From Crambe crambe (lineage: Eukaryota; Porifera; Demospongiae; Poecilosclerida; Crambeidae): a stretch of 64,000 nucleotides of DNA. Made by a program: the position numbers and the translations under genes. The first letter of the stretch is position 1. Every line of letters starts with the position of its first letter. Shown here piece by piece: positions 20,885 through 49,748 of the stretch. The notes beneath the pieces are model-generated. The model saw only the letters and a list, made by a program, of their open reading frames with translations. It was not told the DNA's origin and ran no database searches. The DNA lies in NCBI GenBank assembly GCA_963924555.1, contig OZ004596.1, forward strand, positions 3,916,139 to 3,980,138. The letters run 5' to 3'.

Positions 20885-22881
20885 ATGACTTCAAGTCTGA
20901 CTGAAAACGGTAATTTGGTTAGAATAACTCCTGATCCACTCAGCCTGGATGAAATCAAAGATTTTGTGACTGATCCTTCAGCTGGTGGTATTTCAATATT
21001 CATGGGTAAATATTCATGGGTAATGTATCTGTGACATTAACAATTATGGGCTAGAATGCTTATCCTTAAACCTCTAATGGCTATGAGGGCGTAACAAAAA
21101 CTAACCACAATCTGGTTGCTACCACCCCCATAGAGACAGCCTGCAAGATCTAATTACTATTGTCTCCCCTTTGATCTCCATAAGTCAAACATGAAAAAAA
21201 CATGAACTACTCTATTCACTCTATATATACCTATGCCTGACAATGGTGTAATGGTAGGTAGCATATGAAATGGAGCCATACCAAAAAACAAGCTGCCTTC
21301 AGGTCACCCAACCCCCCCCCCCCCCCCCCCCCCCAAGAAAAAAATCAGTGCAGTGTTTCTGCCTCAGATCTAGCCAACTTGATTCCCTCATATCATTCTC
21401 AGCCTCACATGAAGCAAAAATGAGCATGGAATGCAAGATAATTTAGCTATGATAATTTGGCCACTTTATTGGGATACTGTGCTACAAGAAGCCAAAGTGT
21501 TGATAAAATTAATATAGTATGGGTGATGAAAACTGGCAGAACAGCTAGACATGTTGGTGTACACTGTATTCTAGATCATCTGATTTTCTCCTCCTTGCAG
21601 GTACCACAAGAGATAATTTCAAAGGTGTGTTACAATAATTACAGATCTTATCTCATGCTGTAATCTAATATTCACCAACAGGACAGACAGTAGTAAGGCT
21701 GGAATATGAAGCTTATGAGGCAATGGCAATGAAGCAAATGATGCAGATATGTATCGATTGCAGGGAGAAATGGCCCATTTGTAAGATTGCAATTGTCCAC
21801 AGAATTGGGTAACTTATTACATTAGCTAGTAACACAAATCATAAGGGGTTAAGAAATGTTTCAATGTCATTCAGTACAACATTCCAATGTTAGCTAGTTC
21901 AGCTAGGCAACTGGTGGACCAAAGGTCCTCTCTGGACGCTTCTTTATCCACTGAGCAATGTTAGGCAGTGCCGCTACTGCATCCCTCAGCTTTTTCACTC
22001 CCGAATACTCGTCAAAGAGGTTGTCTTCTTTGAACTCTTTCATGAAGTCGGTGACTAGGTACAAATTCAGATCTACATAGGTCACTTTTGAGCCAAAAAG
22101 CCAACCTCCCTCGCTTGTATTATTCTTTATGGTCTTTTCCATGAGGCCGAGATACTTGGGGATAAAGTCTTTAATAACTTCATCCTTCATTTTTCCTTTG
22201 GTTTCTTCATTTTTTTCAAAAAATGCCTTTACCATTTTCATAACGGCTTCATCCTGAATATCCTTAATGGCAGCTATCTTTGCATTATCAAGGTCACTTG
22301 AACCAGCAAGACCATGCTTCTCTGCAAGATATCGTGCTATTGGCCCACTGCCTGCCAAGGTCTCACCACTGAATTCAAGGAGAGGGAGGTACCCAAAAGG
22401 AGTAGATGGTTTCAAAGCAGGCCAATCTTCCCAAGTCACTCTTACATCTTCATATGGGATCTCAGCCTGAGCGAAGATGAATCGAATCAGCTCTCCTTTA
22501 GCTTCCACAGGAAAGTAGGTCAACTTATAAGTAGTCATACTCTCAGTCTCACACCGATAACAGCTCTACGTTGCAGAAAAACCAGAATAGATTTGCGATC
22601 TGTTCTTCTTGCATTTATACCCAGTGCGCATGTGCACCAAATCACGTGCGGCCCGGATACATTGCAAGTTGGTTGTCCAAAATTAAAGCACAAAGCACAA
22701 ATTGACTGCAATACAAACTTGCATCTATTGAGGAAAAGCCACACATCTATTCAGGAATAACCTCAAGATTTGCATCTTACATTGGACAACCAACTTGCAA
22801 TCCACTGTACGTGAGGTCCATGAATATTAGCATGATATGTATTGTGGGTCTGGATATGCACTGAAATAAGGAATTACATGA

Positions 22882-22959
<78 letters not shown>

Positions 22960-23266
22960 GTAATTAAATAATAAACATGCCACACATGATAATTCTTTAG
23001 AGTTGTTCCTATCAAGGAGCCAAGTGTTATAGTTGCTGCTTCTTCTGAGCACAGACAAGAGGCCATCAGTGCTGTGAGTTTTGGTATTGACTCTCTAAAA
23101 AGGGTTGCCACTATTTGGAAGAAGGTAATTATTGTTAATAATATTATTTAGCAGCTAATTAAAGACACCCCCTTCCCTCCTACATGCACAGGAGATGTAT
23201 TTAGAAAATTCCGGAGAATGGAAAGAGAATAAGGAGTGTACATGGCTGCCTCCAGAAAATAATTGA
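20885..23266 (+). CDS. MOCS2: Molybdopterin synthase catalytic subunit (MOCS2B)
   Basis: Five exons (20885-21005, 21601-21624, 21682-21808, 23001-23124, 23192-23266) encode 156 residues of the MoaE family. Visible family motifs are [44 protein letters not shown] and VATIWKKE, with the lysines expected near the active site. With MOCS2A it converts precursor Z to molybdopterin in the cytosol. It follows MOCS2A by 70 nt with no overlap, whereas the human reading frames overlap. The 1.2-kb third intron contains a complete GST gene on the opposite strand and a TAA microsatellite. Confidence 0.9.
21312..21334. repeat. C homopolymer, 23 bases
   Basis: A pure C run lies in the first intron of MOCS2B. 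Its length may be unreliable in an assembly. Confidence 0.9.
21903..22538 (-). CDS. Sigma-class glutathione S-transferase, nested in MOCS2B intron
   Basis: A single uninterrupted frame of 211 residues has the sigma-GST (HPGDS-like) layout. The N-terminal thioredoxin fold has the catalytic tyrosine in YKLTYF, a glutathione-binding [17 protein letters not shown] segment after LPLLEFSGE, and a helical C-terminal domain ending near [13 protein letters not shown]. The enzyme should join glutathione to electrophiles in the cytosol. It is more divergent than the four plus-strand copies next door and carries a short extra tail (TFGPPVA). It lies wholly within the third MOCS2B intron on the opposite strand. 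It is intronless like its relatives. Confidence 0.92.
   Translation of the reverse strand: MTTYKLTYFPVEAKGELIRFIFAQAEIPYEDVRVTWEDWPALKPSTPFGYLPLLEFSGETLAGSGPIARYLAEKHGLAGSSDLDNAKIAAIKDIQDEAVMKMVKAFFEKNEETKGKMKDEVIKDFIPKYLGLMEKTIKNNTSEGGWLFGSKVTYVDLNLYLVTDFMKEFKEDNLFDEYSGVKKLRDAVAALPNIAQWIKKRPERTFGPPVA
22662..22800. repeat. 139-bp element with perfect 19-bp terminal inverted repeats
   Basis: TTGCAAGTTGGTTGTCCAA (22662-22680) recurs as its exact reverse complement at 22782-22800. The interior has no coding potential. This fits a small MITE inserted upstream of the nested GST gene, within about 125 bp of its start codon. Confidence 0.75.
22883..22960. repeat. (TAA)n microsatellite
   Basis: About 26 uninterrupted ATA/TAA triplets lie in the third MOCS2B intron, close to the next acceptor. 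Confidence 0.95.
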
Positions 23267-23409
23267 CAATTTTTTTTGTTTTATGTAATTTTTTTGCTGA
23301 CATGTAATGTATACAAGTCACTTAATTAGATCAGCCCGCTGCTAGCTATAACACGTGCTGATGTTATCTGTGTCTTCTTGATCCTCAAGTTTAACGTTTG
23401 GCGGTAATT

Positions 23410-24027
23410 ATGACTACTTACAAGTTGATCTACTTCAATGCAAGGGGAAGAGCCGAGGTATGTCGCCTTATCTTCGCTCAGGCTGATGTCAAGTATGAAG
23501 ATAAACGTGTGAATTCAGAAGAATGGGCACAGCTGAAACCCACAACACCTACTGGTGCTTTGCCAATGATGGAAGTGGATGGGAAGCCTTTAACAGGTAG
23601 TGGTCCTATGGCTCGTTTCTTGGCAGAGCGATTTGGCCTGGCTGGGAGCAATGATTTTGAAAATGCTGAACTTGCTGGCATTATAGACGTTCTGGAAGAT
23701 TTTCACATGAAAGTAGTGCCATGGTACTATGAAAAGGACGAAGAAAAGAAAGCACAACTCCTTAAACAACTCCAGGACGAGCATGCTCCCAGATATTGGG
23801 GTATTATTGAGAAGAAGATCAAAAACAACAAATCTGAAGCTGGCTGGATCTTTGGCAATAAGCCGACATATGCAGATCTGGCAATTTTCAGTGTACTTGA
23901 ATTTGCAGAGACGCTTTGTCCTAAAATTCTTGTGGATTTTCCTGGTGTTGCTAAGCTGAAAGGTGCTGTGGGAGCACTGCCTAATATTGCCAATTGGGTG
24001 AAAGAACGACCTCAGACAGAGCACTGA
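23410..24027 (+). CDS. Sigma-class glutathione S-transferase, copy 2
   Basis: This intronless gene of 205 residues begins MTTYKLIYFNARGRAEV. The catalytic tyrosine lies in the YKLIYF motif, glutathione contacts are expected in GSGPMARFLAERFGLAG, and the C-terminal half is helical, ending in LPNIANWVKERPQTEH. The start is the ATG at 23410; the frame extends upstream only through non-ATG codons. It begins 144 bp after the MOCS2B stop and opens a run of four same-strand copies. Confidence 0.93.
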   Translation: MTTYKLIYFNARGRAEVCRLIFAQADVKYEDKRVNSEEWAQLKPTTPTGALPMMEVDGKPLTGSGPMARFLAERFGLAGSNDFENAELAGIIDVLEDFHMKVVPWYYEKDEEKKAQLLKQLQDEHAPRYWGIIEKKIKNNKSEAGWIFGNKPTYADLAIFSVLEFAETLCPKILVDFPGVAKLKGAVGALPNIANWVKERPQTEH

Positions 24028-24255
24028 AGTTGAAAACTATACCTCAGACTAACTGAGCATTCCTCAGACTAGCTGAGCATTGAACTTATCGCTGCAATGG
24101 ACAATGAGACTAGCCACTTATTCATTTAACCTTATCATTCAGCCAGCGCCCCCTTTTTCATTAGGTGGTTACAATTTCCTGCCACAGTTGAGCTTTGTAC
24201 TATGAGCAGGAAACGAAGCTAGCTACGCCCTTCTTTAAAAAAAGTCTCTTCCAAA

Positions 24256-24864
24256 ATGTCTACCTACAAGTTAATCTATTTCAATTTTGTGGGAAGGGGT
24301 GAAATGGCTCGCATGATCTTTGCCCAAGCCGGTGTTGAGTATGAATACCAAAGTGTGACAAGATCGGAGTGGCCGCAGCTGAAGCCCAATACACCTACTG
24401 GTTTACTGCCAGTGCTGGAAGTAGATGGGAAGAAATTGACAGGGAGTGAAGCTATAGCTCGTTTTTTGGCAGAGAGATTTGGCCTAGCTGGAAGCAACGA
24501 CATTGAAAATGCTCAAATTGCAGGCATAGTGAACGTTATGGAAGATTTTACTCAGAAACTCATGCCTTGGTTTTATGAGAAAGATGAAGAAAAGAAACCC
24601 CAACATCTCAAGGTGATTCAAGATGTCCATGTTCCAAGGTACTGGAGCATCATAGAAAAGATGATCCAGAATAATAATTCAGATGCAGGCTGGATCTATG
24701 GCGAGAAACCAACATATGCTGATTTTGCTGTGTATGGTTTACTTGAATATGTACCTGTCCTGTACCCCAATCTTCTCGACACATATCCTGGTGTCGCTAA
24801 GCTGAAAAAAGCTGTAGAGGCACTGCCCAATATTGCCAAGTACCTGAAACAAGCCAAGAGTTAG
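24256..24864 (+). CDS. Sigma-class glutathione S-transferase, copy 3
   Basis: This intronless gene encodes 202 residues. The catalytic YKLIYF is kept, but the second motif reads GSEAIARFLAERFGLAG where the other copies have GSGPI or GSGPM. A change next to the glutathione gamma-glutamyl contact is therefore possible. The C-terminus (IAKYLKQAKS) lacks the KERPDTQ ending of the neighbours. A polyadenylation signal AATAAA follows at 24918-24923. Confidence 0.93.
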   Translation: MSTYKLIYFNFVGRGEMARMIFAQAGVEYEYQSVTRSEWPQLKPNTPTGLLPVLEVDGKKLTGSEAIARFLAERFGLAGSNDIENAQIAGIVNVMEDFTQKLMPWFYEKDEEKKPQHLKVIQDVHVPRYWSIIEKMIQNNNSDAGWIYGEKPTYADFAVYGLLEYVPVLYPNLLDTYPGVAKLKKAVEALPNIAKYLKQAKS

Positions 24865-24993
24865 TTATAGCTAATAATACTAATAGAAGCTGAACTGTTG
24901 ATAATTGTGATACCGGTAATAAAATTATTTGATTAAGAAAGGGTGTGGCTTGTAATTTCCATGCAAGACCACGTGCTTGAACTGTTGAGGCAA

Positions 24994-25608
24994 ATGAGCA
25001 CCTACAAGCTGATCTACTTCAATTTAAAAGGAAGAGCTGAAGTAGCTCGATTCCTTTTCGCTCAGGCTGGTGTCAAGTATGAAGATAAACGTGTGGAGAA
25101 TGAAGAATGGTTGGAGATGAAGCCCAACACACCTACAGGCTGTCTACCCATACTGGAAGTGGATGGGAAGCCACTGACAGGGAGTGGACCCATTACTCGC
25201 TTCTTGGCAGAGAGATTCGGCTTAGCTGGAAGCAATGATTTTGAAACTGCTGAGATTGCTGGAATAGTAGATGTGTTGACTGACTGTTTTTTGAAACTTA
25301 TTCCTTGGTTCTATGAACAAGATGAAGAAAAGAAGGCCAAGATAAAGAAGGAGAATCTAGAGGAACACATTCCTAAGTACTGGGGCATCATTGAGAAGAA
25401 GATTCAGGAAAACAAGTCTGATGCTGGTTGGATTTATGGTGAAAAGTTAACATGTGGTGATTTTGCCGTTTATTGTTCACTTGAACACCTCCTGAAATTT
25501 GACCCTGATTTTCTCTCCAAGTATCCTGGTGTTTTTAAGCTGAAAAAGGCTGTGGAAGCACTTCCTAATATCACCAAGTGGCTGAAAGAACGACCAGACA
25601 CTCAATGA
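24994..25608 (+). CDS. Sigma-class glutathione S-transferase, copy 4
   Basis: This intronless gene encodes 204 residues from the ATG at 24994, which matches the start of the other copies (MSTYKLIYFNLKGRAEV). An in-frame ATG at 24961 could add 11 residues (MQDHVLELLRQ) not present in relatives. Motifs are YKLIYF, GSGPITRFLAERFGLAG and the ending KERPDTQ. It is closest to copy 5, with long near-identical stretches in the second half, which suggests recent duplication or gene conversion. Confidence 0.93.
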   Translation: MSTYKLIYFNLKGRAEVARFLFAQAGVKYEDKRVENEEWLEMKPNTPTGCLPILEVDGKPLTGSGPITRFLAERFGLAGSNDFETAEIAGIVDVLTDCFLKLIPWFYEQDEEKKAKIKKENLEEHIPKYWGIIEKKIQENKSDAGWIYGEKLTCGDFAVYCSLEHLLKFDPDFLSKYPGVFKLKKAVEALPNITKWLKERPDTQ

Positions 25609-25800
25609 GACTGTGATATATAAGCTGATTGCAAGCATGTTGCTGATGTTTTTTCCCCTGGTTTTGTGTTGTCGTGTTGTTCGTTTTTTTTTTTTTTGTT
25701 TTCGTTTATTTGTTGTTTTTGTTTGTTTGTCATATAGAATACGCGCGTGCGTTAAGCACGCTCACCCTGGCCCTTGACCAGAGATAGCTACGTGTATAAA

Positions 25801-26412
25801 ATGAGCTACAAGCTGATTTACTTCAACGTGAAGGGAAGAGCTGAAGTTGCGCGCTTTATCTTCGCTCAGGCTGGTGTCACGTATGAAGACAAACGTATAA
25901 AGCAAGAGGAATGGGCGGGACTGAAGCCCAACACACCTACTGGTACTCTACCAGTGCTGGAAGTGGATGGGAAGTCATTGTCAGGGAGTGGACCCATTGA
26001 TCGCTTCTTGGCAGAACGATTTGGCCTAGCTGGAAGCAATGATATTGAAAATGCTGAACTTGCTGGAATAAGAGACATCCTGATAGATTGTTTTTGGAAA
26101 TTTGTTCCCTTTTTCTCTGAAAAAGATGAAGAAAAGAAGGCCAAGATACAGAAAGAAAACCAAGAGGAACACATTCCTAAGTACTGGGGAATCTTAGAGA
26201 AGATGATTCAAAACAATGAATCTGAAGCTGGTTGGATCTATGGCAATACACCTACCTATGCTGATTTTTACATTTATTGTTCAATCGACTACGTGATAAA
26301 ATTTGACCCTGATTTTCTTTCAAAATATCCTGGAGTTGTCAAGCTGAAAGCAGCTGTAGAAACATTGCCAAACATTGCAAAGTGGCTGAAAGAACGACCT
26401 GACACTCAGTGA
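25801..26412 (+). CDS. Sigma-class glutathione S-transferase, copy 5
   Basis: This intronless gene of 203 residues begins MSYKLIYFNVKGRAEV. It has the catalytic tyrosine and GSGPIDRFLAERFGLAG; an aspartate replaces the Ala or Thr found in copies 2-4. It shares DPDFLSKYPGV and the ending KERPDTQ with copy 4. The frame continues upstream only through a TTG, so the ATG at 25801 is chosen. Confidence 0.93.
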   Translation: MSYKLIYFNVKGRAEVARFIFAQAGVTYEDKRIKQEEWAGLKPNTPTGTLPVLEVDGKSLSGSGPIDRFLAERFGLAGSNDIENAELAGIRDILIDCFWKFVPFFSEKDEEKKAKIQKENQEEHIPKYWGILEKMIQNNESEAGWIYGNTPTYADFYIYCSIDYVIKFDPDFLSKYPGVVKLKAAVETLPNIAKWLKERPDTQ

Positions 26413-29900: not shown

Positions 29901-32900
29901 TAATCTTGCAACATGAAATTGCAAAACACCTATCCAAAATTTACATAGCCTCCTCCTTTCAAAGGACTTAATTGTGGGTTTAGAGTTGGGCTACTCAAAG
30001 GAAGCTATATAAATTTTGGTTTGGTGTTCTAAATTTCATGTTGCAAGATTCATGTACAGAGTACAAACGCTGTAGCTATGATATCCTTACATGGTACTCC
30101 AGTTCTGTGCAGTGTCTGAACAGATCCATGGTCTCCTCACTTCCTACTCTTTCAGCAATTAGAGACTGTCCTATCCATGCTTGAACATAGTCTGGGGAGA
30201 TTGCCTGTGCTTTCTTGAAGGCCTCGTGGGCAAGCTGGAAAACCAAAAATAAGCTAAAAAACCACACACTGGTAATCAAATTTTTCAACACTTCAGCCGT
30301 CTAGCTACTCACTAGCTGTAATATTCTTTTACCTCTGTATTGTCATGCTCAAGGTATAAGACTCCAAGATTTGCCCACGCCATTGCATTCTGAAAAAATG
30401 GGAGGCAGATATTGAGATAAATGGTTCCATGTACAAAGTATGTATTATGCAAGTATATTACATTTGATTCCTCTTGTATGGATCGAATGAAACTGTGTTG
30501 AGCTAATGCAGGATCATTTATCTCTGAATGAATATTATTATATAATTATCATAAGAAAATTAACAATAAAACTTATACCTTTACATGCATTAATAACACC
30601 AAGTGTGTTCCAATAGCTGTGATTCTTCGGTTTCAAAGTAATGGCTTTCTTAGAGGCCTATATTGTAAGGTCACAATACATCCATATAATAGCTAGCCAA
30701 TTTATATAATTTATCAATCCTTTAATTACCTTCAAAGATATTTCAAATGTCTCTTGCTTCTTAGGGTCTTCAGTATTAAGACTCTATACGTGCATGAAGA
30801 GTGTATATACAATGATGCATGGCTGGCAATAATAATTGTGCAGTAGCTACTTTGGCAAGATGGAAGTAGCCCAGGGAAAGGTCGTGCCACAAATGTGCCG
30901 CATCTTCTTCCATTTGAAGTGCTCTACCATAACACCTGAAGTATATATATATAAGAACTAACACTATATATGCTACAGAGTAGGGGATATAACCTGCATC
31001 CAATCATGAGTAGCTCTTGTTTCTCGACTCTTTCAAACTCTAGTTCAGGAGACTCAGATTTGTCACTTCGAAGTACATTAGGGACATACGGTCTAAAATA
31101 TATAACTTAGTAGTAACTAGCTGATACATGCACTTGCTGCTTGCCTGGCAAGAGCAGAGGCCACCTGGTTGAGTGCTGTGCAGCTGTCTCCAAGGAGTTT
31201 CCACACACATTTAAACTCCGGGCGCAACTGAGCAGCTCTAAGAAGAATAATAGTTGCATGTATCACACTTGGCATGAATTCTGGTGAGAATTTATGCATG
31301 ATTCACTTACAAGGTGAGTTGTTTTAAAGCTGATGTGATATAATCCACTGCCAAACCATCAAAGTTTTGCTGCAAAGCTGACTGAGCTAATTTCAAGTAT
31401 GTTTCACCTTTACCTGATTTTATGCATGGAAAAGAAAAGTAAAAATAATTGTATTGTTCAAAACTCAATGAATATACACAGAAACATCACAAATTCAAAA
31501 GAGAGCTGCTGGCTAATCACGTGCTATGTGGTAAGTATTAATGTTGTCCACTTTGGTAGATGTAATTAAGTGTTATTGGAGCACTTATAAACATAACTTA
31601 ATTTTCAGGGGGAGGGGCTTGTTCTCCCTCGATATCGACAACACAAGCCTCCATGGTGTTGGTGTGACTCACAACGATCATCTGGTACTCACTTCCGACC
31701 TTCAGACATCCCCGTGTGCCAGGCTTCAGCCTGCATTTAATACATACCTCGTCTGCACTCAAAAAACTGGGCCATTTCCCTTCAAATCGATAGAAAGTAA
31801 TGACGTGAGCGACACCACCGAAAAACCTCTTGAGTTTGGAATACTTTGGAATCATCAGTGGGTGGCAAGTTGATTCATCCAAAGGAATCACTTCGGGCTG
31901 ATCCTCAAATGAGCAAGCACCTATTTCGTCTTGATCTTTGCCCTCAAACTTAGTCTTGATACCACAACGTGTGCAGAGAGAACGACTGAAAGATAACTGG
32001 AGTCTTTCTTCTCGTACTTCTGCTTTTTGAATTGTGTACAAAATATCTTCGCATGTATCATTAAGAGAAATGAATACGATGGGTGGTCTAGGAGTATCGT
32101 CAAAGTTGAAAACTGAATGCATAGCCTCCTGGAAATGGTGCTGAGTCTCAGAGAGCAAATTTTCTGTGAATCTGAAAACTGTACCTTCTGGTACTGCTTC
32201 GTACACAGCAGTAGAAAAGGTTGCTACAACCACCATGCTGTCAAATATTGAGCGACCGAAGTACTTTTCCATTGTTGCAATCTCCATCTTCAGATTATGA
32301 CTGGCCCTCTTCAGTGAACCTTTGTCAGGAAGGAAGTACACAATACGGCTGAAGTTGAGATGATAAGCAGTTTTGATGCGAAGAATTTTCCGCATGATGC
32401 CCAAATCAGCATTAGCAGCAGAAACAGCACGCTCTCCAAGATCATGATGTGATCCATCAGCAGCATCAACACCAAAAAAGCCAGGGACATCCAGCACACG
32501 TACCCTTGTAGATTCATTAGATAACAACTCACAGTTCAGTGTACGTCCATACATATCATTCCCTGTACGAGATTGGTTGATCTCTTTGTGTGAATTTTCC
32601 AGAGCTTTAAAGAAGATCAAGTTCTTTAGCCGTTTAGCAACACTTCTTTTGTCACTCTCATCATCAGAGACATGCCACATGGTCATATCTCCATGCTTCA
32701 ATGTCCCTCTCTCGAAATCAGGGATAGGATCTTCTTGTGAAGCTTCACTATATTGCCTGCCTGTAGAATTAGCTATGAGCAGTTTATCCACTGTGGTGCT
32801 CTTGCCCATGCCAGTCCTACCTATCACCATGATGTCGTAATAGTTAAGTACATCATCATCTTCTTGCTGCAAAGGAACCTCTCTTTCAGCCATCTTTTGC

Positions 32901-35900
32901 CTTACATCATAACCACCCCCATGCATAAATTTGTTTGGAATATTCATGGTAAATCCCTTCAATGAATTTCATTCTATTATTTCATGTGATTCCCAATTGC
33001 CAGTACAGTGTGGGCAATTTGTTGGTTCTTTACATCACTACGTGGACAATATTATTCAATATCATTACAGAAATCAGTAAAAACAATACGAAAACTAGCT
33101 AGCTAACTGTACATCTAGCAGGAACTCAAAACTATCTTTACATTCACAAACGATGGGATTACCGTGACTAGCACTTGCTGTGATACACACAATATGAGGC
33201 ATAATAATCTTGCTCTATGGGGGAGAAGGAGCTTCATCTTCAACTCTGATATTGCGTTCTTCCAAAACATTGGTGTGCTCGACTTCAATCTCCGTATTTT
33301 TATGCCGATACTTGGTTCCAATCTTTAAGCATCCTCGTGTGCCAGGACTCATCTTGCATTGATCGCACACTTCATCCATAGTTGCAAAACTCGGCCACCT
33401 ACCCACGAACTGACAGAAAGTAATAATGTGAGCAATGCCACCGAAAAATTTCTCCAATTCGGAATACTTTGGGATGATCACTGGATGGCAAGTGGTCTCA
33501 TTTGAGGGGATCACTCGTACCCCACTCTCATCTTTATAGGAACTAATACCCATTTCCAGATCTTGATCTTTACCTTCGAACTTTGTCTTGACACCACAAC
33601 GAGAGCATATTGAATGACTAAAAGCTAACTGGAGCCTATCTTGAGGAACTTTTGCTTCCTGAACTTTACGTAAAACTTCCTCACAGGTATCACGGAGAGA
33701 AATGAATATGATGGGTGGTTCAGGAACATCAGAACTGAAAACTGATTGCATTGCCTCATGGAAATGAACGCGAGTCTCTCTAAATAATTTTTCTGAAAAA
33801 GAGACTGGTGTATCTTCTGAAATAGATTCATAAGCAGCTAAAGAAAGGGTTGCAACAACAACCATGCTATTGAATATCGAGCGACCAAAGTACTTCTCCA
33901 TGATCCCTATCTCCATCTTCAGGTTTTGACCAGCTCTCTTCAGTGAACCTTTATCAGGAAGAAAATACACAATACGGCTGAAGTCAAGATGGTTGGCACT
34001 TTTGATGTGGAGAATCTTACGCATGATACTGAGATAGCAGTCTTTGCTCGTTCTTCAACATCTTTCTCATCACCAGCAGCATCTTCACCAAAGAAACCAG
34101 GAACATCCAACACACGAATCTTTGTGGACTCGTTGGATAGTAATTCACATTGATATGTCGCTTTATAAATGGCCATACCAGTCTCACGAGAGTTATTGAT
34201 CTCTTTATGGGGATCCTTAAGAGCTCTAAAGAAGACCAGGTTCTTCAGTCGCAGAGAAACACTTTCAGTCTCATCTTCTCTCTCAGAAACTAGCCACATG
34301 GTCATGTCACCATGCTTCAATGTCCCTTTCTCGTAATCAGGGATAGTATCTTCATGTGAGGCCTCACTATATTGGTTGCCAGTAAGGTTAGCTATGAGCA
34401 GTTTGTCTACTGTGGTGCTCTTGCCCATGCCAGTCCTACCTATCACCATGATGTCATAATAATCAAGCACACCATCATCTAGACCTTGCTGCAAAGGCTT
34501 CTTGCTCTTGATGACCTCACTTTCAGCCATCTTTATCTTACATCATGGAAAAATAAAATATTTTTGATGATATTCATACTTAATGAATTTCATTCTGCTA
34601 TCTTGTGCTGTCTTGTGTGATTCCCAAGCAATATGCTTTTAGCTTATGGGCTAGGGTTTTGCTACTCACTATTTTACATAGACATGTAAAACATTTATAG
34701 CTACACACACACACAATAAAATAATACAAAAATTAACTGCACAGCAGCAGTAATTAAGAAACTTTTAAAATAAATAACAAAAAACAACAACAACAAATCA
34801 AAATAAAAAACACTGTCAACCTAAGCAAGAGGCTCAGCTCGGCCTCCCTCATCAATTTCTGGCTCGTTAACTTGACTGGTGTGATCGACGATGTACTTCT
34901 TTCCCCGGCGAGAAGACTGGTACTCCCTTTTGACTTGCATGCATCCAGGGGTAAATGGGCGCTCATTGCAAGCTATGCAGTACTCTTCTTTATATGATGG
35001 CCATTTATGAGATATAACCTTAGAAATGGTCCTCCCAAGAAGTAATCTCAAAAGAGAATACTTGAAAGCAGGATGACATGTGGACTCATTGTAAGGGATT
35101 GAAGAGCTTAGACTTGGATTTTCTTCAAAGGAGCACACGACTTTCTCACCCCTGATGCTGCCAATTTTCATTCCACACTGAGAACAAGTATTCGGATTGA
35201 ATTGGAGCCTCAAACCTTCTTTGCATTCAACTTCAGCATCTTGTATCTTTTTCAAGATTGACTCACAAGATTCAGCAAGAGAAATGAAGATGATGGGAAC
35301 CTTTGGTTCTGGAAGAGACGGAAGAATATCCTTTATTGCTGCTTTGAAGATTTCGTCACACTGCGCAATGTCTTCTTCGGGAAATTTTTCGTCGTCACTC
35401 TCTTTCTTCAAACTGTGGCGTCTAGAAATAGTAGCAACAGCCACCATGCATTCAAATATGGACTTACCAAATACATGTTCAAGTAGCTGTAATTCAAGCT
35501 TGAGTATAGCACTGGCTCTTTCTAATGGTCCACGGCACGGAAGGAAGTAGACAATTCGACGGAAGTGCATACCCAAAGATGACTGTATTCGAATGATATT
35601 TCTGACGATGGAAAGATTAGAGTTGGCAACATCAGAATAAGAGGCACGAAAATCAGCTGAAAAGCTTTCTGGCCTAATGGGACTTACGACTCCTTTATCA
35701 AAGAAACCTGGAACATCTAAGATTCGGATCTTGGTTGTATCATTTGAAAGAACCTCGCAGGACTCTGTACTCAATGTATTCCTTGGATCTCTCATGGTGT
35801 TCACTTTATCATGAGGATGGGGATGAGTTCGACAAGAAATCAGGTCCTTTAAACGTTTTCCCAAGTGTTCATTGTTATCTTCTTGTTTAAGAAGCCACAT

Positions 35901-38900
35901 GCTGATGTCTTCTAAAATCACTTTGTCACCATCAGCACTAGGCTCAAAGTCAAAAGGTTCATACTTCTCACCACTTGGATTAGCTATCAGCAACTTGTCA
36001 GCTGTCGTACTCTTTCCTTGGCCAGTCATTCCTACCAGCATAACATCGTAGTAAGTCTGACAGAGGCTTGAATTCAACAAGCCTTCTTGCTGCGCAGCCA
36101 TCGTTTCGTTTAGCGGTGCGATCATGCCACGCCTATCCGAAGATACGCGCATGCGCACGTGTGGGTACTACTGACCAGAGATATTCTATACCACTGACCT
36201 ATGCAAAGCCTATCGCTGCCACAATGAAGGTTGCCACTCTGTCGCATCTAATATCATTCAATCAATCATTTGAGGTCTGATTTCAATCCTGACGTCCTTG
36301 GCTTATAATAATAAGGTTGCAACGTTGGAAACTCACTGGAAGCTGATCATCATGCAGGTTATTTGTGCAGCTGGCGTTCTCTCTCTTGTTCCCTTCATGT
36401 TTGTGCACAACCTCACCTCCATATATCTTGGAAAGCAGTTCTCAGAAGGCTCAGTACTAGCCTTGTCCGAGGCTAGCTCAGTACCTGATAAATGTTGTTA
36501 GGAACATGAGCCGCATGTCCCTCAGTGCTGCTTGAGACTACATGGATGGTTGGCATGAGCACAAGTATTAATTAAACACAGCCATCTTTGCATAGAATTT
36601 CACTATAAAAACAATAATAGTCTACTAATTCTTTAAAGTCAGTTTCAGTGGGATTATTGTCTTTTGAAGCACCTGAAGACGTTATAGCTTAATCTATTGG
36701 GGAAGAACTTCATCTTCAATTCTGATATTGCGTTCTTCCAAGACATTGGTGTGCCTGACTTCAATCTCTGTCTTTCCATGCTGATACTTGGTTCCAATCC
36801 TTAAGCATCCTCGTGTGCCAGGACTCATCTTGCAATGAATGCACACTTCATCCATAGTTGCAAAACTCGGCCACCTACCCACATAATGATGGAGGGTAAT
36901 AATGTGAGCGATACCACCAAATTGGAATACTTTGGGATGATCACTGGGTGGCAAGTGGTCTCATCCAAGGGGACCTCACACCACTCTTCATGGGAGCTAA
37001 CACCCATTTCTAAACCTTGACCTTCAAATTTAGTCTTAATACCACAACGAGAGCATACCAAACGACTAAAAGCCAACTGGAGCCTATCTTGAGGAACTTT
37101 TGCTTCTTGAACTTTATGTAAAACTTTCTCACAGGTATCATGAAGAGATATGAATATGATGGGTGGTTCAGGAACATCATCAGAACCTAGAACTGATCGC
37201 ATTGCCTCCTGGAAATGAACACGAGTCTCTTTAAATGATTTTTCTGGAAAAGAGAGCAGTGTACCTTCTGATATAGCTTCATAAACATCTGAAGGAAATG
37301 TTGCAACAACAACCATGCTATTGAATATTGAGCGGCCGAAGTACTTCTCCATAATCCCTATCTCCATCTTCAGGTTTTGACTGGTTCTCTTCAGTGAGCC
37401 TTTATCAGGGACAATGCGATTGAAGTCAAGATGGTTGGCATTTTTTATGTGGAGGATCTTACGCATGATACTGAGATCGGTACGAGTAACAGTCTTTGCT
37501 CGTTCTTCAACATCCATCTCATAGCCAGCAGCATCTTCACCAAAGAAACCAGGAACATCCAATTCCAATACACGAATCTTTGTGGACTCGTTGGATAGTA
37601 ATTCACATTGATATGTCGATTTATAGATGGCCATGTCAGTCTCACAAGAATTATTGATCTCTTTATGGGGATCCTCAAGAGCTCTAAAGAAGACCAGGTT
37701 CTTCAGTCGCAGAGAAACACTTTCAGTCCCTTCTTCTCTCCTAGTCTCTATCCCAGTCTCATTTTTTCTCTCAGAAACTAGCCACATGGTCATGTCACCA
37801 CACTTCAATGTCCCATTCCTGTAGTCAGGAATAGTACCTTCATCACTGCACTGTCTGCCTGTAGAATTAGCTATGAGCAGTTTGTCCACTGTGGTGCTCT
37901 TGCCCATGCCAGTCCTGCCTATCACCACGATGTCATAATAGTCAAGTAAGCTATCATTCAGACCTCATTGATTTATACATGTAGCTAATATTAAGATTAA
38001 GAGTTGGTTCCTGTTCATGTAGTTCAAACTAATGGTATGTGACGGTGGAATGTGGTTCCTATGCATGGGTGTAATGCAAATGAAAAAAAAAAATGGCTAT
38101 GCAGGAACAAAATTAATTAGCTTATTATGTCATCCCTTCACCATGAAACTCAATTACAGGAGGACTTTGATCACCTCTTTGATTGCGAGGTACATCTCTT
38201 GTACTTCCAGGAACAAGAACAGAACTTTCATTACCACCATCAAATGCTGGAACAGGTTGATCTTGAGAAATGTCAGATTCATCACCACTTGGCGATGCGT
38301 TATCTCCTTGGTGGGCCACTTCATCATCGCTTGATAAGGACGTATTTTGGTACAACACCCTATGGTGCTCATCAAGTTCGTTGGTGTGATCCACTTTGAT
38401 CTTAATCTTGCAGCCACCCTCGGCATCAATCTCATAAGTGTCATTGATTTTCATGCAGCCTGGACTACCTGGACCCTTATTGCAATTAGGACACATCTCT
38501 ACCGAATAATCTGGCCATCTTCTCCACGCAAATGTAATAAGATGCAGTATTCCAGATACGATCTTCTGCAAACGGGTATATTTTGGGAGGAATATCGGGT
38601 GACAGTGAGACTCATCATAATCAATGCCATTTTCTTCGCCAGGCTGTATACACTTTATCCGCTCCCCTTTCAGTGATTCAATCTTATGAGAGCATTTGAT
38701 GCACGTCCCTGGGTTGAAAATCAACCGAAGAGGCTCTCTCTCGACTGGAGCTTCCTGCACTTTCTTCAGGATTGATTCACACGTTTCTTGCTCTGACATT
38801 GAGATGAAGATAACTGGAGGATTAGGAAGTGCTTCTTGATATTGTGGTAAAACAGTTCTCAACGCTTTCTGAAATTGCAATTTTGTCTGCTCAATTTTAT

Positions 38901-41900
38901 CTTCAGGAAAGAGCACATCTTCAGGAATATGACTTATTTGACTTAAGTACTCGGAAAAGGTAACAACGAGAACCATACAATCGAATATTGATCTATCAAA
39001 GTAATGAGCCATAAGGACAAGCTCTTGTTCCAATACCATGCTCGGCCTTTCAAGAGGACCTCGTACCGGAAGGAAGTATAGGATCCTTTTGAAGTTTATC
39101 TTCATGGTCGATTGGATGCGGAGGATGTTTCTCATGACAGCTAGGTGGCTGCGAGCTGTGTTAAAAGCACTTGAATAAGGAGATCGTTCTTGATCAGCAT
39201 TCGGACCTTTATTGCCTGTGGATGGTTGGACACTGAAAAATCCAGGTACATCCAACACACGGATCCCAGTAGTATCATTGGAGATAAGTTGACAAGATGA
39301 TGTTATAGGGTTATCTTGATTCTTTCTAGACTCGTTCACTCTTAGATGGGGGTTATCCAACTCACGAAAAAAATCAAGACCCTTTAGATACAGCACAATT
39401 GGCTCTTTCTTGTCATCAGGAATGTCAGATACTGCCCAGAATGTCAAATTTTTTTTAGAAATTTTATCATCTACTTGAATTTGATCTTCATCTTCACTAT
39501 AATCTTCCGGTGGTTGTTCTTTAGGAGGTGACTCTTTTTTGTGATTAGCAATGATCAGTTTGTCTGAAGTGGTGCTCTTCCCTTGTCCAGTCAGACCCAC
39601 TATCATCACATCGTAATAGTCTATATCCAAGTCCTCTTCAGTGGGACGTACTTGAACTGGAGATTTGGGACACTCTTGAATCTGCTCATTGACAACTTGA
39701 GCCATTGTAAAATACTACAGCTCTAATTAGCAAGCAGCTCTCAACCATGCATGCAGTTTACAGCAGGTACACAATGCATTATGGTTATGATCATGTGACC
39801 TATGAATATCAACTAGCTACCAGTATACTATTGTATACTATTGTGGACTGTTATGATCATGTGACCTATGAATAACAATTAGCTACCAGTATACTATTGT
39901 AGACTGTTATGATCATGTGACCTATGAATATCAACTAGCTACCAGTATACTATTGGCCACAGAGAGTGGACCATGCCACATAATTATTATAGCTATAGAT
40001 CTGATGTTGTGATAAGTGCTGATAAACACATACAAGTATGTTTTTTCCCAACCTGCTCCTCTAGCTATAAGCGTAATGCAGTAACACAATGTCAGAATAG
40101 AATATTTTTCACATGCTATAGCTGAAAGGCAAGGGTGTGTAACATATGCATATGGTAATACATCCAATCCATTAAATACAAGGTGTTCAAATATTGCATC
40201 TATGCACCCATGCATTGGAATATGACATAATTGAATACCAGATTATACGTGTACTCACCCTTCAAAGCTGGGACAAAGCTATGATCCTTTTCCAAAACAA
40301 GCGTGTAATCAACAAGGGATTCTTTTAGCAGGCCAAGCTTTTGCTTGATGGTGGCAATCCTAGTGAATTATGTAATTTAACCCCTTATACAGTATGCACT
40401 TTTTCCAGTGATAATTAACAGTTTAAATATGCTATGAACTTTAGTGAACTCACTGGTAGTGGCAGTGAATAGCATCAGGATCAAGCTAGAGAAGAGAAAA
40501 AAAGACCTTGCTTAATCATTATAGAGTGACACATAAATATGAGTGGTCCTGCCCCTCCATCCTTAATGACTATCATGTATATAACATGCTGCATTGAAAC
40601 TAATCAGGCCACCCTTTCTTAGTAAAGGATTCACAGAAACAATATGAAGTGAAACCTGCTTATTGCTGGACCAGGAACTAGTGGCCTTAATGGGGAGGTG
40701 GTCTTTTTATGGAGGCTGGAATAGGTGCTATTGGCTGGGACATGGCCAGGTACTGTAAGCTCCCACATACCTGAATACACTTGGTGAAGGTTCTAAGGGC
40801 GGAGTTATAGCTGCCTCTAGCCAAGTAAGCCTCTCCCAAACACTCCCAGCAATGTCTGCATGCATGTACACACGAGTCCACTCCAATGATAGAGTCCCAT
40901 CTCACATGCACTTACCTATCGTTGGGAAACGCAGACAGAATGGTCTGGAAACTGCATGTATGAGAATATACAGAATTGTGGATGGTTACCACATGATGTA
41001 TGCTCTGAGAGAAGGGGATGACTAGCTGCATGGGGTTGTGATAATTATGAAGATGCATATGTGATATTCCGTAGGATTTTATATTTGGAGTCTAGGGGAT
41101 GGGTGACTAGCTGGAGTTGGTGCATGTGTGGTTCTAGATTTGGAGTCCAGGGGGAGGGGTGACATGCTGCACAATATGAAGGTGCATATGCACACATATG
41201 TACCAAGGATTTGGAGTTCGGGGGGAGGGGTGACTCACTGCACAATATGAAAGTGCATATGCACACACATGTACCAAGAGAAATGCTTACAATGAAAGGG
41301 TTTCCACTAAATGCTGTCAGTATTACCACCCATCATCAAACATTGATCAACTCACCTCTTGATTGCTTCATTGTACTGACTCTTCCTCTTCTGACAGAGG
41401 CCCATTCTCAGCCATGCCACCTTAACCCTTCAGGAACAGTAACATTAGTATGCCATACGTATAACATTACATTACTGTGGATCACTATAATTATTATGTG
41501 TACATGTATGGATTATCAGTGGAACACTTTACATTACCTAGAAGGCAAAACATCTGCAGTAATGGCTCTGTAGACTGCATATGCCTTTTCCTATAATGTA
41601 AAAATAATAATAATATTATGATAGCTAAAACCAAAGCAAATAAAATACCTACGTATTGCAAATATTAAAGTGGACTCGACATATAAAGTCAGGGGGGGTG
41701 GGGGGAACAGTAAAAGCAAAGTTGGGGGAGGGAGGGGGCACCCTGTTGTGATAATTATTGCATACCTCATCTTCGGTTTCCCATAATATGTCCCCCAGAC
41801 AAATGGCAGCATCATGGTGAGAAGGTTGCAGTGTTAGTGCCTTCTGGTAACACTTTTCTGCTCTCCTGCATCAAAAAAGAAAGTTATAATATGGCTGGAA

Positions 41901-44952: not shown

Positions 44953-47900
44953 TCACAATATTGAACAACTGTCAGGGTTCCGGTTGCTACTTCTGGATGT
45001 CTGTTGGGGTGATGGATGTGGTGCTGGTGGAGGAGGTGCTGGCCGAGAAGGAACTCTCTGAGGTGGGGGCTGAGCTGGTAATGATTGTGGTAGAATTCTC
45101 TGAGGTGGGATCTGGGCTGGTAATGATTGTGCTGGTCTGGGTCTTGCTTGACTGGCGTAAGTGTAATTCATTCTATAAGTAATGATGTAGGCCGGGTAAG
45201 CTTTTTCGTTGGAGTATGTCATATAGACCTTACTTCCATTGGTAGTTCCACAAACAGAATCATACCGCACTTGTATCAATTGTGAACCAGCTGCTGGTTT
45301 CTCTGGAGGGAATTTGAGTGAGTTATCTGATTCACACTCATAACTGTCTCCTGCCAGTACCTTAGCAAGTATCAATTCTTTCAGGCCACTGTTGGGATCA
45401 TAGTAAGCGTAAGTGTCAGAATACTTGGCCATCTCTGCAAAGTAGTTAGCCTGTCCCCACATTCCCTCACGCGAATATCGCATATCAAATCCTTCTTCAG
45501 AGGCGCAAATCATCTCGGCTTTGGTGTTGCGTGAACCATGAAATAATTCCAGCTCATGAACTTTCCCTGAATTCTTCTCATGGAGTCTGGTTTTCTCTTG
45601 CATGTAACGATTCCATATCCACTTGTTCTGTACTCGCTGCAAGGATGTGATTCGAGCATTTGGCAAGGTTTTTTTCACTCGTTTGCTGATCTTATTATAT
45701 TCAGTAGAGTCCGTTACAGTGAACAGTTTAAACTGCTCAGTTTCAGGCTGACCTTCCCACTCAGGTGGATAGTTCTCAGGAGTAGCTTTCAATAACTGGT
45801 TACTGGAGGTTTGGAATTCGATGATCATATCTTGTATGTCCGCCTTAGCCTCTTTCACTAGATCCTCCAATCCTTCAATTCTCAGAATGTGACGATTCGT
45901 ACTGCTTGCTTCGGAGTCAGTGCCTTCCTTTACTTCACAGCCAACTTTATGCTTCCTTGCAACAGTTATTAATTTTTGTTGAAAGGATGGCCCAGCACTC
46001 TTTGGCAAGGGCACATCTTTGGAACACAAAAGTCCCTTTAAGCATTCGTGAAGGCAATCCCGAGCTGCATCAAGATTTTTTTGCATACCCTTCAGGTAAA
46101 TCACTACTTCATCATCACAAAGAAAAAAGGTATCGATTTTGCGTTGTACATCTCGCTTGTACCCTGTCTGCTCGTTAATTTGCACCATATTCTTGAAATT
46201 GAGCCTGTAACTTCTGGACTGGATAGAGAGCCTTATGATGGGGTGATCTTGTTGGAATTTTTCTTCAATCATGGAAGATATTTTGGGAGTGTACGAACAG
46301 AAAGTCTGATCATCTTCCATGTACTGCCATTCTACAGCTACCTTCTTACCACTATCACCAACTGGCTTCTTCTTCACCTTACGTTGATTCTTTGTGGAGA
46401 GATTCGTTTGCTTCATGGTCTGGAAGTCAATCTTGTACCTGCCATCACCGATATTAAGATAGCAGACCCCAGTGGGGTTGCTTCTGTAAGCATCATTGAG
46501 CTCGTCATTTTGAGCATACTGAGTGAAGGAGCCATAATCATTTTCCCATGACCAAATATGTAGTTTGTTTCCAGAAATGAAAGCTTTCAATGTTTTGACA
46601 TATGCTTTAGCTTCATCTTGTGAATCAACAACTACATTCACTGTATGTAAGGTGGTGGGGCTCAGTGCAACAAGGACGTCAATGAGGGATTTTATCATTT
46701 GTGTGTCGATTCCTGGGTAAGAAACACTTCCCACTTTTTCTTGGATAGAGTGCTCAAGAGTGGCAGTGACCAGGTCATGCAAATTTGCAGATCTTTGCTC
46801 CGAAATGGGAAACAAAGTGTGAAATATCATCATGGAAAGCTTTTCACTCACTAAACTCATGACTTTAGATAACTCACAACCGTCATTGTACAAGTGCTTG
46901 GAATAGCTCTTTCTGAGACGTGGCAACTCAATGGGATACATATGCTGCGTTGTAGCTTCGCCAGTTGGAATAACAATGGCATCTGCTTTCACTGTTGTGA
47001 GTGCACCCACTACTATTTGTATAGCAACCACATGATCACGCTTCACACACAAGTACGCTTGTTCTGCTACATCATCAGAGCTTTTATCAGATGAAAAACT
47101 CGAGATAACACACAGTTTTTTCTTCAAATTCTCTCTACATTTGAGTACTTCATCACGAGAACAAAGAGGTAGATATGAAACATTGTGAATTGACTGACAC
47201 ACACTTATGGTTGCATCATCAGATATCAGCTTGATTCTATCAAGTGTTTCTTTTGCTTTCATATTGCACCCTGAAATAGTGATCGTGACGAGCTTTTTAA
47301 GCGGTAACAATTCACAATCGGGAGGAATCGTGATACGACAGGAACGTTTTGCTGCTTCTCGCTGAATTTCATTGGTGCAATAGGAAACCGTGACTGCTGT
47401 AATATCCACCGCCTCTTCAGCAGGAACTATCCGATTCCAAGCCTCCTCTATGTCCTCAATGCACAAGCCATGCAATTGTGGGGTTTGGTCTGAACAAACT
47501 TTTAACGTGACAGGGAGGCTGTCCACACAGTTCAAAGCAGATGAGAGCCAATTGGAATCGACTTCTATTTGAGGATAACCTTTTAGCTGGAATCTGAAGC
47601 TCTGTAAAGCAGAGAGAGAGATGGTACTATGTTATGTATAAAGACCACTGCTGTTTAATCAATGAAGCCATCCACATGCTTACACCACTTCACTACGCTC
47701 GGCTATGCAGCTATTGTAACAGTTCCAGGTAGTTTATCACTCAATAGCATGAACCACACAAAAGCTGGATCTTAGTTATGACAAAACAAGCCTGACCATG
47801 GAGTCACGAGCACAAAACCTCAATAACATATCTATAGATGAGTTTTGGTGGAAATTGAGTTTCAGTGAAAATCATTCACAGAGTTTGAATTGTACCAAAC

Positions 47901-49648
47901 TTCTGTGGTATGTTGGACTTTAAATATTAGCCTGCAGGTCCACTATTTTATCTAAATGTCAGCCCTAAGTAGTAATCAGCAGAAGTGGTCAATAAACTAT
48001 CAGGGTTCTCCCCACCACTTGCTATTTCAGCCACCACTTGGCTATTTCGGCCCACCATTCATTATAGCTACTATAGCTACTCACTATTACATATCAGTGA
48101 TTGATCATCCCAAGGGACACCCCTAATGAACAGTGTTATAAAGTGGCCAGGGAAAATAAATAACTGGCCAAAATGGCCACTGTTAGGGGCAAAGGAGGCA
48201 GTATTTTGGCTTCCATCTAATGTGTACACTTAGACACAATAGAAGTGAATCCCTGCTACATTGATGTACAATTAACTATTTACCTTTAAAAGCTTTTGTG
48301 CTGTTTGGAATTTGGCCAGATCTCTACTAAACAAAAGAATGTTACATTTGTCATCATTCTCATGAAGTATGATGTATTTGACCTCGGCACACTTTATATG
48401 TGATATTTTTTTACGGATCAGAGCTGGGTTAGCTTTAACCTGGATCACATCAATTAGCAATCCTTTCACTACAGGGTCATTAAGAATAGAAGCAGTTGCC
48501 CTTTCAATTTCATTACTGTCATTCTCAGATAGATAGATCACATCATTCTGCATAATAACTTTGGCAGGAAAACACCCTCTTTTGAGTTTATTAAATGTTC
48601 GATAGTCTGACTTTGATATGTGGACGAGATATGTCATGATTTCTGGTGAACATTGGAGTCTGGTCCTAGAGAAATTGATAGTGAGTTCGTATTGATCATT
48701 CAACTTTGTCCCTTGAAACTTCTTGAGAGCAGCAGCAGCATCTTCTCTTGAAACAAAGATGACAAAACCAAAATTCTTCTGTTGTTTGGTCTTAGGGTCA
48801 CATACAATGAATGCATCTTGGATAACTTTTTGAAATCCTTGGAAGTGTGCCTTTAAGATACTATCACTGATTCCTTCGACATTAGATGTACCTATCAAGA
48901 CAAATAAAGTCCTTGAGTTTCGCTCAAAATCATCTTCTCTGTGATTGCTTTTAGTATTCTTGACATTTCTAGATCCAGGAGGAGCAACCAGAACTGAACC
49001 CAGTGGTTTACTTGCCACGGGAGGCACTGGTTCAGGCACCGATTTACTCACCACAGGAGGCACTGATTTACTTGTCACAGAAGGCACTAATTTACTTGTC
49101 ACAGAAGGCACTGTTTTACTCACAGGAGGCGCTGATTTACTTGTCACAGAAGGCACTGGTTTACTCACCACAGGAGGCACTGATTTACTTGTCACAGAAG
49201 GCACTGGTTTACTCACCACAGGAGGCACTGATTTACTTGTCACATGAAGCACTGGTTTTGCCACATGAGGCATAGATTTACTTGTTACTGGTTTACTTGC
49301 CACTGGTCCACTTGCCACAGGAGGCACTGGTTTACTCTCCACTGGTGTATCACTTTCTCTCCAATACCGCACAAGAAGTGGCTTCCCATGTAATCGGTCA
49401 CCTTGATGAACTTTTACTGCATAGATAGCATCTTCGATGTTCTTAAAGGTTACCTTACCAAATGTCTGGCATGATTGTCTTGTCTTGTCCTTCAAAATTC
49501 TGGCTTCCTGTATTGGATGTTTTTTAAACAGTTCCTCCAGCTCGGTGTCATCAAGTGGAAGGTCCTGATCCCTACCATGCTCACGGATGCAGATGAAAAG
49601 AGAACGATTCTGTCTTCGGTAGCTTGGATGGTAGGTTCTTTGACTCAT
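44953..49648 (-). CDS. PARP14-like mono-ADP-ribosyltransferase with RRMs, WWE pair and CaaX box
   Basis: Two exons (49648-48284, 47601-44953) join in phase (LLK to SFRFQLKG) to give 1337 residues. Order: an RRM (residues 14-100), a Pro/Val/Ser repeat (about 100-230), a second RRM (SRTLFVLIGTSN onward), KH-like segments, one degenerate macrodomain (KADAIVIPTGE..HTLFPIS..) lacking the glycine-rich ADP-ribose loops, two WWE domains (IWSWENDYGSF; VEWQYMEDDQTF) and a C-terminal ART domain. The catalytic triad reads H (LFHGSR), Y (GQANYFAE) and V (SKVYMTY) in place of Glu, so mono-ADP-ribosylation or inactivity is expected, not polymer synthesis. A proline-rich tail ends in C-S-I-L, a CaaX box favouring geranylgeranylation. 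It ends 175 bp upstream of SKIC3 on the same strand. The architecture resembles vertebrate PARP14, with the prenyl box as in ZAP/PARP13. Confidence 0.87.
49014..49290 (-). repeat. Coding minisatellite, 48-bp unit (16 residues)
   Basis: Several copies of a unit encoding SVPPVVSKPVPSVTSK-like sequence lie between the two RRMs of the PARP14-like gene. Units differ by small in-frame gains and losses. The product is probably a flexible Pro/Ser linker, with copy number likely to vary between alleles. Confidence 0.85.
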
Positions 49649-49748
49649 TTCTAAATAGTTAGGCTAGGTCATTTTTATACTAGTATATGGTTGCTTGAAC
49701 TACAATGCTGGCTACCTAGTCTAGCTAGCCTTAATAGAGCCCCTCACT

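Follow-up and report, generated by a model that had tools for sequence, protein, structure and literature searches.

The window analysed here is a stretch of 64,000 nucleotides from the sponge Crambe crambe (C19:3916139-3980138; the assembly totals 143 Mb and has 119 contigs). Within it, an intron of SKIC3 holds five paralogous copies of one gene family (31598-39705), all intronless and all on the minus strand like their host. The family very probably combines an AIG1-like P-loop domain with an undescribed C-terminal Cys/His domain. Our favoured explanation, held with some confidence, is a cluster of AIG1-type nucleotide switches carrying a new, probably zinc-binding tail and acting as a modular immune scaffold, with function and zinc binding as we infer them. 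A role in defence, judged separately, is evenly balanced. The sequence-only reading had counted five paralogous genes. Five paralogues on the host strand are indeed there, but copies 2 and 4 are broken and three copies (1, 3 and 5) are intact.

38125..39705, minus strand: copy 5, intact, 526 residues, with an extended tail beyond the Cys/His module
36694..37964, minus strand: copy 4, broken; lacks an ATG between the preceding stop and the P-loop and leaves its frame ahead of the last CxxC
34821..36101, minus strand: copy 3, intact, 426 residues counted from the MAA start typical of the family (the listed frame opens with a GTG, 36158)
35214..36059, minus strand: AIG1/Toc34-like P-loop domain of copy 3, residues 15-296
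34872..35204, minus strand: C-terminal Cys/His module of copy 3, residues 300-410 (C306, C309, C342, H343, C375, C378, C387, H407)
33215..34530, minus strand: copy 2, broken into two overlapping frames (33940-34530 and 33215-34024)
31598..32926, minus strand: copy 1, intact, 442 residues when started at the second in-frame ATG (the listed frame opens with a TTG, 32962)

The Cys/His domain, already pointed out from the letters, was confirmed as a conserved module. It is composed of eight candidate ligands in the order CxxC, CH, CxxC, C and H. Relatives were taken from lists of the best 120 of 198 matches (copy 5 search) and the best 120 of 183 (second search). Among 255 matches listed, all eight residues are kept in 236 of the 238 relatives with letters at the sites. 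A strict regular expression recognised the module in 104/118, 15/20 and 70/117 members of three sets of listed relatives; the alignment count is preferred, since fragments occur among the rows and the expression allows little variation. No convincing match to the module was obtained from Pfam models, PDB sequences or PDB folds, and none of the three gave a strong full-length match including it. The motifs GxTGxGKST, LDVPGFF, YFLPxRGPLER, CxxC, CHP, CxxC, GC and HT(N/S) are all present. The module looks new; it most likely binds two zinc ions and forms a fixed C-terminal domain.

The P-loop half is best read as AIG1-type, on the GIMAP/Toc34 side, which is a known kind of enzyme domain. The AlphaFold model has a predicted local distance difference test (pLDDT) score of 87 and a predicted template modelling score of 0.88, and its P-loop half is nearest to Toc33/34 and GIMAP among solved folds. 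Toc33 is the top match, and Toc34 and GIMAP rank above Rag, septin and Ras. In Foldseek, the best GIMAP chains outranked bacterial dynamin and mitofusin, and IRG was absent from the fold-comparison rows shown, with a partial profile match at E 0.09; neither observation is evidence against kinship. Some relatives with the same tail exceed the Pfam gathering cut-off for AIG1 (PF04548, 27 bits), namely P0122 with 29.9 bits (one of four tested) and P0143 and P0141 with 30.9 and 43.1 bits (two of four tested). In the aligned members, the P-loop Gly and Lys are found in 113/113 rows, the G2 Thr in 110/113, the G3 Asp in 113/113, the G3 Gly in 112/113 and T224 in 112/113. The same tendency appears in the three listed sets, where the P-loop Lys is kept in 118/118, 20/20 and 112/117 and the G3 Asp in 118/118, 19/20 and 106/117. 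The family also has an intact P-loop, a DxPG motif, three near-invariant arginines and a block that seems to resemble the AIG1 conserved box. The sequence-only reading had proposed an undescribed P-loop GTPase family. The fold was right, but the P-loop part does not form a distinct family, because its nearest folds are Toc33/34 and GIMAP and same-tail relatives surpass the AIG1 cut-off.

Several results weigh against the favoured explanation. Every window copy scores under the AIG1 cut-off (18.6 bits for copy 5, 19.7 for copy 3 and 21.5 for copy 1), the pieces of copies 2 and 4 do no better, and other P-loop models match the window copies about as weakly. In one tested set, 0/10 relatives passed, the best reaching 24.5 bits, and a precomputed AIG1 label is attached to just 4 of the best 120 of 198 copy 5 relatives. 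The G4 guanine-specificity motif, sought as [NT][KR]x[DE] within the aligned region, occurs in 0/113 rows. Residues 351-370 of the module (copy 3 numbering) have a pLDDT of about 52. Lastly, the GTPases named in the available part of a lipopolysaccharide study on Halichondria are a BTB-domain one, septins and small GTPases, not the family described here (PMC8242945). The low scores and the lack of a canonical G4 would also suit a wholly separate TRAFAC GTPase family, as distant from AIG1 as septins or Ras. Copy 5 has no match among PDB sequences, and a family profile reaches septin P-loops before GIMAP (septin-9 E 2.2e-4, GIMAP7 E 0.082). However, these septin-first matches cover mainly the P-loop, and the fold ranking has Toc34 and GIMAP at its head. 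In addition, bridging relatives that carry this module exceed the AIG1 cut-off and share one tree with the window copies, a tree built without canonical GIMAP or septin. A separate family is thus quite improbable. NCBIfam gave weak matches alone, mostly at the level of the P-loop, and so did PADLOC, with LeoBC as the best (E 8e-4, G domain of copy 1).

The absence of a canonical G4 looks new, as far as the alignment tells, and guanine specificity should not be assumed for the family. It leads to another explanation, a pseudo-GTPase in which a nucleotide-binding scaffold, kept together by the zinc module, no longer has GTP specificity and perhaps no longer hydrolyses its nucleotide. No catalytic residues for hydrolysis were identified, which agrees with such a loss. 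On the other side, the wide retention of the P-loop Lys and the G3 Asp argues for nucleotide-dependent work, and some variation in G4 is described for snail AIG genes too, in the part of the paper available (PMC7053062). The pseudo-GTPase is regarded as rather unlikely, and an AIG1-type nucleotide switch is preferred.

The five copies do not seem to stem from one local burst. Their protein identities across matched stretches are 35-82%. Copies 1, 2 and 4 are 51-82% identical over matched protein stretches, and the DNA of copies 2 and 4 agrees at 82.5% across 1,322 columns. For copies 3 and 5 the identity is 35-46%, whether they are compared with each other or with the rest. A tree was made by a quick method from 63 chosen rows, in which copy 2 is a C-terminal piece and copy 4 an N-terminal piece, with support from the Shimodaira-Hasegawa-like approximate likelihood ratio test (SH-aLRT) only. 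Copies 1, 2 and 4 make one clade (SH-aLRT 100), to which a copy from contig C14 attaches (98). Copy 5 groups with P0002-P0005, P0009, P0012 and P0017 (SH-aLRT 100), and copy 3 goes with P0015 and its kin at weaker support (SH-aLRT 90, not starred). Because copies 1/2/4, 3 and 5 are separated, three lineages are recognised in the array, and we read them as older than its recent duplications. A single local expansion giving all five copies is not supported by this tree and was rejected; the sequence-only reading had likened the array to nested clusters that grow by duplication.

The ratio of non-synonymous to synonymous substitution (dN/dS), estimated roughly by the Nei-Gojobori method, was 0.19-0.40 in five overlapping comparisons of pieces of copies 1, 2 and 4, two of which are now broken. 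The values suggest purifying selection. Four pairs (copy 1, 3 or 5 against the C14 copy, and copy 3 against copy 5) were saturated at silent sites, so that no ratio was obtained. The best relative outside the Crambe crambe genome, among the matches listed, is P0002 (E 9.4e-119). Together with the dN/dS values, this match indicates that the array is more than chance. The values also bear on whether the array is a set of decaying retrocopies with no function in Crambe crambe. All copies are intronless and 2/5 are broken, as retrocopies would be, and retrotransposition was left open by the authors for the AIG1 cluster of a glass sponge, in the portion of their paper available (PMC10282587). But three frames are intact, the dN/dS range is low, and P0121, a relative of 962 residues with an SNTX-FN3 block, is likewise a single open frame. 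The intronless state therefore looks usual for the family, and the decay of functionless retrocopies is very unlikely.

The host intron is delimited as follows.

31414..40258, minus strand: SKIC3 intron that hosts the array, 8,845 bp; donor GTGAGT with its GT at 40258-40257, acceptor AG at 31415-31414
40259..40359, minus strand: SKIC3 exon 5' of the intron; 5' limit approximate, taken from an AG
31311..31413, minus strand: SKIC3 exon 3' of the intron; 3' limit approximate, taken from a GT

Both flanking exons joined in frame give 71 residues, which match human SKIC3/TTC37 in PDB (7qdr_B and 9g8o_B, E 1.3e-12). Because of this match, the host identity, the strand and the intron limits are taken as right, and the SKIC3 intron with its host-strand array, as first drawn from the letters, is borne out by the splice sites too. 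Two more stretches read as SKIC3 exons had no SKIC3 match in PDB. We regard the intron as a sheltered place for single-exon genes and do not read it as pointing to a special mechanism.

The search of the own genome with copy 5 yielded 19 stretches, of which seven are in the window, one is on C14 and eleven are on C13 (404-680 kb). The C13 cluster (C13:404031-679412, L009-L018, eleven stretches) encodes SNTX-FN3-GTPase-Cys/His and FN3-GTPase-Cys/His proteins, as well as shorter open frames in which the full module was not seen (e.g. 403899-404897). In P0121, an SNTX MACPF-like, helical and thioredoxin-like block and FN3 precede the GTPase-Cys/His part. P0122 and P0123, also on C13, have FN3 alone at this place, the FN3 match of P0123 being just under the cut-off. 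A pair of retroelement-like open reading frames (ORFs), judged by eye, lies near 556-559 kb of C13.

In further relatives, a ZU5 domain follows the Cys/His module: this is seen in P0034, P0079 and P0097, which pass the ZU5 cut-off (3/10 tested), and P0142 is just short of it. ZU5 is found in death-domain signalling proteins. In P0141 and P0143, the G domain is set apart from the module by tandem units, each about 145 residues long, with 5 and 7 pattern starts, or about 6 and 8 units by eye. When five units were scanned, Ty3_capsid was matched by two (E 1.6e-4 and 3.2e-3), DUF1759 by two and PNMA by two, always under curated cut-offs, and one had no match to Ty3_capsid, DUF1759, PNMA or DUF7083. 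P0143 as a whole matched PNMA at E 1.6e-3, also under the cut-off. The matches are suggestive of a capsid-like (Ty3/BEL) nature of the units, and each protein is a possible domesticated-capsid GTPase; literature listings for a GTPase with Gag or capsid contained no such fusion.

Two Halichondria panicea proteins are among the matches listed. Prokaryote genome contigs gave 583 pattern matches and IMG/VR 157, with no relative in either at the sensitivities used, and none was confirmed in phage records at the sensitivity used. On these searches, at their sensitivities, a prokaryote or virus origin was set aside. A restriction of the family to sponges is possible. Several relatives share the size of their source contig (e.g. 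four with 27,022 bases), where sameness of contig is judged by size only. This sharing suggests that clusters recur in other assemblies.

These architectures also bear on a housekeeping nucleotide switch, for example in Toc34-like membrane or organelle traffic, without a role in defence. Its strength is that the top fold match is Toc33. Against it, the family forms clusters of many divergent copies, some of its copies are broken, and relatives are fused to SNTX-type, ZU5 and capsid-like parts, features that are more usual in defence families. A housekeeping role is considered unlikely. The likeness to GIMAP-type immune clusters, drawn in the sequence-only reading, is judged right.

For the immune scaffold that we favour, the following mechanism can be proposed. 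Nucleotide binding would drive the pairing of G domains, as is reportedly the case in GIMAP and Toc34. The zinc module would dock partners or the paired G domain, and the protein may serve as an intracellular defence scaffold or switch. Input and output would be varied by the domains fused in relatives (SNTX-FN3, ZU5 and capsid-like arrays) and by changes in copy number. A bolder and tentative proposal, which we hold to be doubtful, is that the module is a new zinc fold defining a class of AIG1-type switches, some without the guanine-specificity motif, and a plug-in immune platform that stands alone, after SNTX-FN3, before ZU5 or with the capsid-like arrays of P0141 and P0143. If it is true, the latter two would be domesticated-capsid, retroelement-restricting GTPases. 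If the module binds zinc and partners, the output side of early-animal AIG1 switches becomes directly testable.

Two neighbouring regions were also noted. On the minus strand just upstream of SKIC3 (44953-49663), there are an RRM ORF (48272-49663) and one for WWE/PARP that also matches KH weakly (44953-47631); together they presumably resemble a PARP10/14-type gene. At 21903-26412, five ORFs, of which one is on the minus strand and the others on the plus strand, read like glutathione S-transferases; two match Pfam and the rest were judged by eye.

Septins rank under Toc34 and GIMAP in fold, and we know of no Cys/His module in septins or in Toc33/Toc34. Toc33 and Toc34 are plant chloroplast proteins, in contrast to the tandem animal clusters described here. 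The SNTX-FN3 proteins (PF24674/PF21109/PF18078/PF00041) are alike in that the own-genome relative P0121 has such an N-terminal block; none of these domains was reported by Pfam for the window copies. GIMAP/AIG1 (PF04548) shares the predicted fold, the P-loop, the G2 Thr, the DxPG G3 and tandem expansion. The Crambe crambe family differs from it in its eight-ligand Cys/His end, the missing canonical G4 and the window scores below the Pfam cut-off.

The following statements come from the available portions of the cited papers. A strict definition of GIMAP requires a coiled-coil region beside the AIG1 domain (PMC7053062). GTPase switches of a septin/GIMAP-like clade are described from bacteria in a survey that covers the conflict systems of prokaryotes and metazoans (PMC8195603). 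In sponges, Halichondria panicea is among the species of an AIG1 tree (PMC12373286), and GIMAP-family expression in Dysidea avara differs between symbiont and seawater-microbe treatments (PMC11229196). AIG1/GIMAP genes were reported as undetected in Amphimedon (PMC7053062, PMC11229196), whereas the glass sponge Aphrocallistes vastus has an expanded tandem block of 50 AIG1-domain genes, 38 of them single-exon (PMC10282587). In our reading, the branch with the Cys/His module, so seldom labelled AIG1 among the copy 5 relatives, could help to explain this disagreement, and the module provides a searchable marker for it. Sponge AIG1 clusters are already published; in the open-licence literature searched, no AIG1/GIMAP protein was found described with a zinc or Cys/His tail, nor did nesting of AIG1-type genes in a SKIC3 intron turn up. 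The available account of the Aphrocallistes vastus cluster mentions neither a Cys/His domain nor intron nesting, and the cluster is otherwise alike in its sponge host, AIG1 domain, tandem arrangement and many single-exon genes (PMC10282587).

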